A stretch of 64,000 bases of DNA from Emticicia aquatilis (lineage in GTDB: Bacteria > Bacteroidota > Bacteroidia > Cytophagales > Spirosomataceae): positions 124,001-188,000 of the forward strand of contig NZ_BMKK01000012.1 in assembly GCF_014644295.1 (NCBI RefSeq), read 5' to 3'. Below the pieces are notes generated by a model, which saw only the letters and a program-made list of their open reading frames with translations, searched no databases and was not told the DNA's origin. The position numbers and the translations under genes are program-made. How positions within the stretch are numbered: the first letter of the stretch is position 1; every line of letters begins with the position of its first letter. Of the stretch, positions 21,160-38,600 are shown in pieces.

Positions 21160-21245
21160 TAATTAAGAATTAAAAATTGAGAATTAAAAATGAAGGTAGA
21201 ATATTTCCTTATTCTCAATTCTCAATTCTCAATTCTACATTCTTA
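21160..21245. repeat. AT-rich inverted repeat between atpA and atpG
   Basis: Words of the type AATTGAGAATTAAAAATG on the left are mirrored by CAATTCTCAATTCTCAATTC on the right, with three tandem TCTCAAT units. The same kind of sequence occurs near 7405-7440, 32330-32350 and 37031-37087. It could fold into a hairpin in the atpAG message. Confidence 0.7.
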
Positions 21246-21251
21246 ATTGTA

Positions 21252-37018: not shown

Positions 37019-37030
37019 TGGATAATGAAT

Positions 37031-37087
37031 AATTGAAAATGGAGAATTAAAAAAGAATAAAACATTATCAATTCTCCATTTTCAATT
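37031..37087. repeat. AT-rich palindrome with 18-bp perfect arms abutting the pepA stop
   Basis: AATTGAAAATGGAGAATT (37031-37048) and its exact inverse (37070-37087) flank a 21-nt loop in the gap between convergent recO and pepA. It ends 2 bp before the pepA stop region, whose last codons (AATTGA) look like a continuation of the repeat. It could stop transcription from both sides, but T-tracts are weak. Confidence 0.85.
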
Positions 37088-37088
37088 G

Positions 37089-38600
37089 TCAATTAATTCC
37101 TCTCATCCACGTAGTCAATAAATTCACGCCATAAGCAGTTGCCGATTTCATTTTGGCAAATTCTGAATCGCCAAAGGCCAAGCCAGCAATATCGAGGTGA
37201 GCCCAATTGGTATGTCCATCAATAAAAAATTCTAAAAATTTGGCGGCAGTAATTGCCCCCGCAACTGGTGCTGACGAAAGATTTTTGATGTCGGCCACAT
37301 CAGAATTCATCATATCTTTGTAGTCGTCCCAGAGTGGCAAACGCCACAGTTTTTCGCCAGTGTCTTGTCCGATTTCGAGTAATTCATTGGCCAATTCATC
37401 ATTATTCGAGAGCAATCCTGCGGCAGCATAACCCAAAGCAGCAATACAATTACCCGTAAGTGTTGCTAAATCTATGATTACATCTGGCTCAAAATTTTTC
37501 TTGATGTAAGAAAGTCCATCAGCTAAAATCAATCTTCCTTCGGCATCTGTATCAATTACTTCAATGGTTTTGCCCGAATAGCTTGAAATTACCTCACTTG
37601 GTTTCAAGGCATTTCCATCGACACAGTTTTCGGTCGAAGGAATTACACCAATCAAATGCACTGGAAGTTGTAGCTTTGCTGCCAATTCCATTGCTCCTAA
37701 AACAGCTCCTGCCCCACCCATATCCGACTTCATATAACTCATACTTGCCGAACCTTTGATTGAAATTCCGCCAGTATCGAAAGTTACACCTTTGCCTACT
37801 AAGCCTACCCTTCGACTTCGCTCAGGGAGCGGTGAATCTGAAGAACGTTCCCCGAGCGTAGCCGAGGGGGAAAGGTATTCCATCACAATAAATCGAGCAG
37901 GGTTTTCGGTACTTCCTCGACCAACAGCCAAAAGTGCGTGCAGACCAAGTTCGAGGCATTGCTTTTCATCATAAACCTTTACATCAAAACCATATTGTTT
38001 GCCAGATTCGATGGCAAATTCAGCGAGTTTTTGTGGATATTTATAATTGGCAGGTGCATCAACCAAAGCCATGATTCGGGCCTGTGTTTCGGCAGTTGCT
38101 TGCCCGATTTCAGCTGATTTTCCGGCACTTCCTAAGTGATTTTCAGCTACTTGAATTTCTAAAACTGCATCTTCTGTAAAAAACTCAGCTACTTTCTTTG
38201 CATCGGTTTTATAAGCTCCTACTTCATATTCGGCCAAACAGATTCCGTTAACAATTTGCTCGGTATGAGCTTCTAAACCAGCCAATTTTAACTTCAAACC
38301 AACATTTTTAGGTAATTTCTTCTTTGAATTATAGAAAAATGAACGAAAAACCTTCACGAAATCAATCGCTTTTGGAGCTTTTCCTAAACCCAAAAGATAT
38401 ACTTTTTCGAGTCCTTCTACTGCTCCGTACAAAGCCAACGTTTCTTTTGCTCCTGCCTTAAAATCTTGTTGTAGTATTTCGGCACTAAGACCAACGTGTT
38501 TGGCAATTTTTGAAAGATTTTCGGCCAATTTTTCATTCTCTACCAACGGAAAGATAATGGTTTTTGCGGCCGTATTATGGGTTGTTATGTTGATTTTCAT
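37089..38600 (-). CDS. pepA: Leucyl aminopeptidase (M17) with an in-frame repeat insertion
   Basis: A 503-residue cytosolic zinc aminopeptidase. The catalytic domain has GKGVTFDTGGISIKG (269-283) and NTDAEGRL-type motif (IDTDAEGRLILADGL), and the fold ends normally. Residues about 244-264 (SPSATLGERSSDSPLPERSR) are encoded by a GC-rich inverted repeat at 37808-37873 and have no counterpart expected in the family: they lie between EYL and VGLVGKG. The reading frame stays open. The insertion is in the linker before the first metal loop, so the enzyme may still fold. A gene upstream on the same strand (106 bp) encodes a CBM48-esterase. Confidence 0.95.
   Translation of the reverse strand: MKINITTHNTAAKTIIFPLVENEKLAENLSKIAKHVGLSAEILQQDFKAGAKETLALYGAVEGLEKVYLLGLGKAPKAIDFVKVFRSFFYNSKKKLPKNVGLKLKLAGLEAHTEQIVNGICLAEYEVGAYKTDAKKVAEFFTEDAVLEIQVAENHLGSAGKSAEIGQATAETQARIMALVDAPANYKYPQKLAEFAIESGKQYGFDVKVYDEKQCLELGLHALLAVGRGSTENPARFIVMEYLSPSATLGERSSDSPLPERSRRVGLVGKGVTFDTGGISIKGSASMSYMKSDMGGAGAVLGAMELAAKLQLPVHLIGVIPSTENCVDGNALKPSEVISSYSGKTIEVIDTDAEGRLILADGLSYIKKNFEPDVIIDLATLTGNCIAALGYAAAGLLSNNDELANELLEIGQDTGEKLWRLPLWDDYKDMMNSDVADIKNLSSAPVAGAITAAKFLEFFIDGHTNWAHLDIAGLAFGDSEFAKMKSATAYGVNLLTTWMRGIN
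37808..37873. repeat. Palindromic repeat inserted in pepA
   Basis: CCCTTCGACTTCGCTCAGGG on one side and CCCCGAGCGTAGCCGAGGGG on the other are imperfect inverted copies (TTCGACTTCGCTC against TCGGCTACGCTCG on the reverse strand). The element is about 66 bp, GC-rich, a multiple of three within the gene, and opens no stop in the pepA frame. Confidence 0.9.

Follow-up and report, generated by a model that had tools for sequence, protein, structure and literature searches.

The 66-bp imperfect inverted repeat within pepA of Emticicia aquatilis is very probably an in-frame insertion of a REP-like element, composed of two copies of a 24-nt hairpin unit that is dispersed through the genome. The repeat lies at positions 37808–37873 of the window, the 64-kb stretch of DNA that was analysed (G000:C12:124001-188000, where G000 denotes this genome of 6.75 Mb in 36 contigs). 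This reading draws on the dispersal of the unit, the covariation of its stem, its polarity, the occurrence of other in-frame copies, the existence of insert-free relatives and a low-confidence turn predicted at the site in the protein.

The inverted repeat in pepA

The host gene occupies positions 37089–38600 on the minus strand and encodes a leucyl aminopeptidase (M17) of 503 residues, as judged from its open reading frame, its Pfam matches (Peptidase_M17, 7.7e-112; Peptidase_M17_N) and sequence comparison with M17 structures; its nearest named relatives belong to Emticicia species and MAGs. Repeat searches, folding and alignment define the insert as a head-to-head dimer that forms an in-frame part of the gene. 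Unit A (CGCT-CCCT-GAGCGAAGTCGA-AGGG) spans 37808–37831 on the minus strand, with its core at 37812–37823, and unit B (CGTT-CCCC-GAGCGTAGCCGA-GGGG) spans 37846–37869 on the plus strand, with its core at 37854–37865; both were recovered by the core search (G000:C12:161812 and G000:C12:161854). Their tags point inward, toward a 14-nt spacer (37832–37845) that separates them. Each arm of the repeat has one match in the window even when three mismatches are allowed, where chance would give 0. Folded as single-stranded DNA, the 66 nt form a stronger structure than shuffled sequence does (z −2.61 for the plus strand and −3.62 for the minus strand), and within the pepA mRNA the insert is the most hairpin-prone 66-nt window, with 0 of 221 other windows folding as well.

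A first-pass annotation of this DNA had described the inverted repeat as lying in pepA in frame and without a stop, and the sequence and the translated reading frame agree with that description. Its estimate of about 21 added codons is revised here to a net gain of 13 codons over the nearest insert-free relatives, based on linker lengths. It had also treated the 66 bp as the dispersed entity, but it is the 24-nt unit that disperses; a search of G000 with the 201-bp neighbourhood of the insert returned one other match, over 29 bp. Nor do palindromes of the same style occur throughout the window, as had been claimed, since the core is present at one site only: the two pepA cores are the only matches at zero or one mismatch, and the 19 matches at two mismatches are near chance (21 in total, with 11.7 expected and a maximum of 21 in 100 shuffles). 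Inverted repeats of other sequence number 22 in the window. A+T-rich inverted repeats of the type AATTCTCCATT / AATTGAGAATT, at 37023–37095 and 21161–21248, represent another kind of repeat, situated behind genes.

The protein was modelled with AlphaFold2 on 20 sequences (mean pLDDT 79.5, pTM 0.86). Residues 247–260 of the insert have pLDDT values below 50 and lie between strands 236–243 and 264–269. Because further segments (131–133, 275–291, 434–443 and 473–487) also fall below 50, the most that can be read from the model is a turn lengthened by the insert. The insert codes for a predicted floppy loop or turn between two beta strands, and PepA would presumably still work despite it.

Anatomy of the unit

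The consensus unit, derived from 144 copies in two genomes (G000 and G005), comprises 24 nt in the order CGKT, 4 nt, GAGCGNAGYCGA, 4 nt, the invariance of the 12-nt core being a product of the search pattern. The tag is kept on one side only: G at position −7 is present in 131 of the 144 copies and T at −5 in 129, while the position partnering G at −7 pairs in less than half of them. The four stem pairs adjacent to the core vary, yet they are 79–90% Watson-Crick compared with 37–68% expected from column make-up; pairing is weaker beyond them. Across 10 pairs in the 71 G000 copies, 73.1% of cells are paired versus 54.9 ± 1.2 after shuffling, and 150 cells are changed on both sides, where shuffling gives 66.7 ± 5.7 and sliding no more than 76. 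Of the five measures of covariation, two were no better than shuffles (10 versus 9.4 both-side-change pairs; 33 versus 33.1 further pair types). The consensus and the covariation counts both retain four of the 71 core places (L110, L117, L122 and L133) that have neither tag nor stem and were judged to be chance matches.

Copies are commonly paired. Where neighbours of opposite orientation lie within 80 nt of each other in G000 and G005, 14 of the 15 pairs are head-to-head. Same-orientation neighbours number 16 in these genomes, nine of them ++ in G005 and mostly belonging to tandem arrays. At two such G005 loci (L156 and L192), near positions 2000–2110, tag and core recur in tandem every 23 or 21 nt and the 3′ stem arm is missing.

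The free N of the core is A in 94, G in 23 and T in 27 of the 144 copies, and C occurs in other genomes. A GNA mini-hairpin loop has been published in which N can be any base and at least two G-C pairs are needed (PMC4686876). With its free N between G and A and its adjoining G-C pairs, the core resembles this structure, and by analogy it may form a GNA-loop mini-hairpin with tandem G·A pairs and a bulged pyrimidine, in which the Y of the core would either be bulged or pair in place of the next C. The GA/GA flanking the putative loop would be tandem sheared pairs. In ViennaRNA predictions for isolated units, 26-mers folded as DNA leave the 12-nt loop open; a GNA loop is drawn for the 18-nt pepA-type unit, yet 138 of 200 shuffles fold as well.

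Dispersal in Emticicia and beyond

The loose pattern CTTCGACTNCGCTCAGNG, with up to two mismatches, matches 51 places in G000 and its reversed control matches none. The 12-nt core is found at 71 places in G000, 73 in G005, 31 in G010 and 39 in G009, compared with 1 (0 forward, 1 reverse), 0, 2 and 2 for the respective reversed-pattern controls. Among 150 genomes of the family, 44 contain an exact 16-mer of the unit. Among 296 genomes of the phylum, 89 contain CTGAGCGNAGYCGAAG, with control matches, assessed by eye, in 2 genomes. The G000 cores fall in 52 loci, 48 of which hold a credible unit by our criteria. Most of those outside long open reading frames sit within about 100 bases of the end of one, and several copies sit at the tip of a near-perfect stem with a T run behind it, in the manner of a terminator. 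A total of 25 of the 52 loci can be aligned for over 600 bp with a G005 locus that bears the element too, so that many sites predate the split of these genomes and many are unshared. The strand of the unit in G000 shows no relation to local GC skew (at negative skew, 20 copies lie on the minus strand and 18 on the plus strand; where skew is positive, the numbers are 19 and 14). Replichore polarity was suspected in G319, from another class of the phylum, on the basis of forward-only matches among the matches listed. It was rejected after 40 stretches of 20 kb spread over both chromosome halves (L265–L304) yielded 27 copies (17 forward, 10 reverse), with both strands represented in both halves.

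A Y1 transposase was considered as a partner of the unit and set aside. There are 10 Y1_Tnp matches in G000, and no core at up to one mismatch lies within about 1.5 kb of the eight genes whose surroundings were read. The exact 16-mer occurs in 0 of 20 Y1-less genomes of the family and in 44 of 130 with Y1 (Fisher p 0.0009), an association that is confounded by genus and weak, given that 10 of the 20 Y1-less genomes belong to one genus.

The pepA linker in relatives

The segment between EY and VGL of PepA is 66 nt (22 residues) long in G000. Within an alignment of 29 rows, from which lengths were taken in 12, this linker is free of the insert in eight Emticicia rows, measuring 27 nt (9 residues) in L044, L045, L054 and L046 and 36 nt (12 residues) in L047–L050; in L060 it measures 21 nt. 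G010 and G005 share a version of the insert, with a linker of 28 residues and three unit-like segments, some of them degenerate; the insert is thus not private to G000. The linkers of the three insert-bearing species fold at −30.2, −23.3 and −39.0 kcal/mol, and that of G010 is no longer the lowest window of its gene, with 5 of 224 others as low. Together with the genomic copies, the insert-free relatives bear out the first-pass suggestion that a dispersed palindrome has entered a gene and been tolerated in frame; the inserted residues are not common to close and distant relatives alike, and the sequence is not unique in the genome. No precise empty site was found among the linkers compared, and no recognisable remnant of an old linker lies beside the insert. 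In the pepA tree, G000, G010 and G005 are unresolved beside a clade of G002, G009 and EMPMRC01. The insert label needs two changes on this tree, and 1% of 200 bootstrap trees have one change. This history could comprise a gain followed by a loss, or else two or more gains, and a single origin of the insert is compatible with it. In two members of another Emticicia clade (L047 and L049), the linker encodes SALAD through a small inverted repeat, TATCTGC/GCAGATA (TATCAGCC/GGCTGATA), which shows paired third-codon differences that may be due to chance.

In-frame copies in other genes

In-frame copies in G000 amount to 14 units in seven genes, pepA included. The others encode the kdo transferase WaaA/KdtA (three units), a molybdopterin/FAD oxidoreductase fusion (two), a galactarate/altronate dehydratase (two), a peptidase C26 amidotransferase (three), a glycosyltransferase (one) and an AtuA-like protein (one). 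This count excludes a DUF3799 PD-(D/E)XK-like protein (L109), which probably carries an in-frame copy, and other unjudged overlaps with open reading frames (such as L100, L115, L137, L148, L158, L193 and L194). In G005, in-frame copies are present in the genes for PepA, WaaA, the dehydratase, the amidotransferase, AtuA, a UvrA protein and an Eco57I-type methylase. The UvrA protein of G005 (L161:1221-4013) has its in-frame unit cluster between the Pfam domains UvrA_inter and UvrA_DNA-bind. The unit is translated in several frames, yielding PERSR, SEAE, FDFAQ and SATLGE. Copies within genes are a minority, a pattern to be anticipated where the majority of such insertions do not survive.

The cleanest empty site is that of the oxidoreductase gene, where 22 codons are missing in G003, G007, G001 and G006; the remaining six relatives have no close orthologue. 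In waaA/kdtA, the linker located toward the N-terminal side of the domain for kdo transfer (L195–L207) ranges from none to four unit-like segments across the genus, with four in G005, three in G000, two in G008, partial segments in G009, G002 and G010, and none in G003; the linkers of G001, G004, G006 and G007 consist of another sequence. The dehydratase linker was compared in seven genomes (L208–L214). The G000 insert is common to G005 and absent from G002 and G003, and other hairpin-prone sequences occupy the linker in G008 (L211; 2 of 246 other windows as low) and G010 (L213; 22 of 226). This linker appears to be a recurrent landing site.

Copies in terminator-like stems

The orthologous gene ends of seven G000 loci were compared in four relatives (27 loci, with L239 left out). 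At the L126 site (L126:1954-2049; L242, L244, L253 and L243), the terminator stem is similar in G000 and G009 and the unit within it points in opposite directions in the two genomes; the forms found in G005 and G003 are shortened, and the hairpin of G010 is unrelated. The shortened forms of G003 and G005 may be remnants, which makes a plain history of gain unsafe for terminators. At the L112 site, the unit is present in G000 and G009, a bare terminator occupies the same context in G010, and the sequence in G005 and G003 is unrelated. The unit is found in G010 also at the L134 site and as a variant in G009 at the L119 site; the remaining three sites are occupied by other sequence in the relatives read. 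The unit can therefore act as a loop module in terminators, and gain and loss are indistinguishable in the few cases compared. Less expected features of the comparisons are that protein linkers gain, lose and swap palindromes, and that orientation is flipped within one terminator.

Relation to known palindromic repeats

The closest parallel is with the CGTC-tagged REPs. These are short tagged hairpins, mostly head-to-head dimers, located between genes or near gene ends, without a flanking transposase gene, and reported from five phyla including Bacteroidetes (Di Nocera, De Gregorio and Rocco 2013, PMC3733652). Some copies are inserted in frame within genes, uvrA among them; more than half of these are dimers or groups, and they code for 20–30 residues (PMC3733652). 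The Emticicia unit likewise forms head-to-head dimers, is mostly intergenic, has in-frame copies in genes and leaves no core beside the eight Y1 loci read, and uvrA is a carrier gene here too, in G005. The two differ in their tag and stem. The CGTC-tagged REP has an unpaired terminal tag, CGTC (also TGTC or CCTC), a stem of 8–9 bp opening with A-T pairs and a loop of 4–5 nt (PMC3733652), whereas the Emticicia unit has a strong 4-bp stem beside its 12-nt core and an xGKT tag placed one base nearer the core (55/71 copies in G000, 58/73 in G005); a CGTC-type tag is found in 0/71 and 0/73 copies, respectively. In G319, the same core is accompanied by a TGTC, CGTC or CCTC tag in 23 of 27 copies. 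The core thus ties the unit to the CGTC superfamily, and the tag sets the Emticicia unit apart.

Rickettsia palindromic elements (RPEs) were the parallel drawn in the first-pass annotation. These palindromic repeats, described as about 150 bp long with a conserved peptide, are inserted in frame in many unrelated genes and tolerated (PMC10969869); in R. conorii, CGTC-1 is the same element as RPE-6, and CGTC-4 the same as RPE-4 (PMC3733652). The parallel holds in kind: the Emticicia unit is inserted in frame in seven G000 genes, and insert-free relatives occur. It measures 24 nt, and its copies are translated in several frames; the likeness drawn is an analogy of behaviour. GTAG REPs, associated with RAYT (Y1) transposases, are also described in the same source as tagged hairpins that form dimers and are mainly intergenic (PMC3733652). 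The Emticicia unit shares these properties but has an xGKT tag, and none of the eight Y1 genes read is flanked by it. The PARCEL coding palindromes were set aside as a different kind of element (PMC2996958). Among PMC-licensed papers, the titles and abstract beginnings of work on Bacteroidetes REPs, on dispersed or Emticicia palindromes and on intragenic REPs contained no xGKT tag variant; in paper text, 16-mers of the unit had no match and 12-mer cores had only off-topic matches, as judged by title. In-frame insertion of REP-type elements is an already known phenomenon (PMC3733652, PMC10969869), and the tag variant was not found in the PMC-licensed papers searched.

Origin and persistence of the insert

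A REP-like hairpin dimer would have inserted itself into pepA in the Emticicia lineage, where the gene encodes a turn joining two beta strands, and would have done so no later than the common ancestor of three or more species. It would have persisted by virtue of being in frame, stop-free and placed in a permissive turn. The unit may spread as a single-stranded DNA hairpin that joins existing hairpin loops and permissive gene segments, with the joining brought about either through template switching or, in trans, through a Y1-type enzyme; any particular route is doubtful at present. The imprecise boundary in pepA and the lack of a single clade for the three insert-bearing species in the pepA tree are counterpoints to insertion.

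The same element could instead have multiplied without transposition, its copies, extra units and flips arising through template switching, slippage and repair between palindromes during replication. We regard this as quite possible, if somewhat short of an even chance. It accords with the tandem arrays of G005 and their period of 21–23 nt (L156, L192), with the two or three unit-like segments of pepA and the varying count of them in waaA, with the opposite orientations in a similar terminator stem of G000 and G009, and with the finding of no flanking transposase at the eight Y1 loci read, but both the scattering of loci with unrelated flanks and the clean gain of 22 codons in the oxidoreductase require some transfer to new sites. 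It is unlikely that the insert has been kept for a function, either as a regulatory hairpin of the pepA mRNA or as a selected change to the protein surface. A strong hairpin does persist in three species while third units and substitutions build up, and the reading frame has been maintained; however, five of the six reading frames of the insert are stop-free on inspection, so tolerance alone explains the keeping of the frame, the G010 window has lost its place as the lowest in its gene, and copies occur in unrelated proteins, always in segments that vary among relatives where compared (pepA, waaA, dehydratase and oxidoreductase). M17 linkers do vary at the insertion point, as an ordinary divergent linker with a coincidental palindrome would require, but this account, like that of an assembly artefact, is scarcely credible when both arms hold the genome-dispersed 12-nt core and orthologous inserts are present in two other assemblies.

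Returning to insertion of a REP-like element, we tentatively suggest that the unit may be a loop-capture module, repeatedly dropped into, flipped within and lost from terminator loops and a few permissive protein turns. The pepA, waaA and dehydratase linkers would then be lasting landing sites, where successive related or unrelated palindromes rewrite the protein in frame. In Emticicia, a non-coding hairpin repeat supplies in-frame protein segments in a bacterium outside the best-known groups, and the genus, with several species, empty sites and variable unit numbers per site, offers a comparative system for the spread and persistence of tagged hairpins that have no known transposase.
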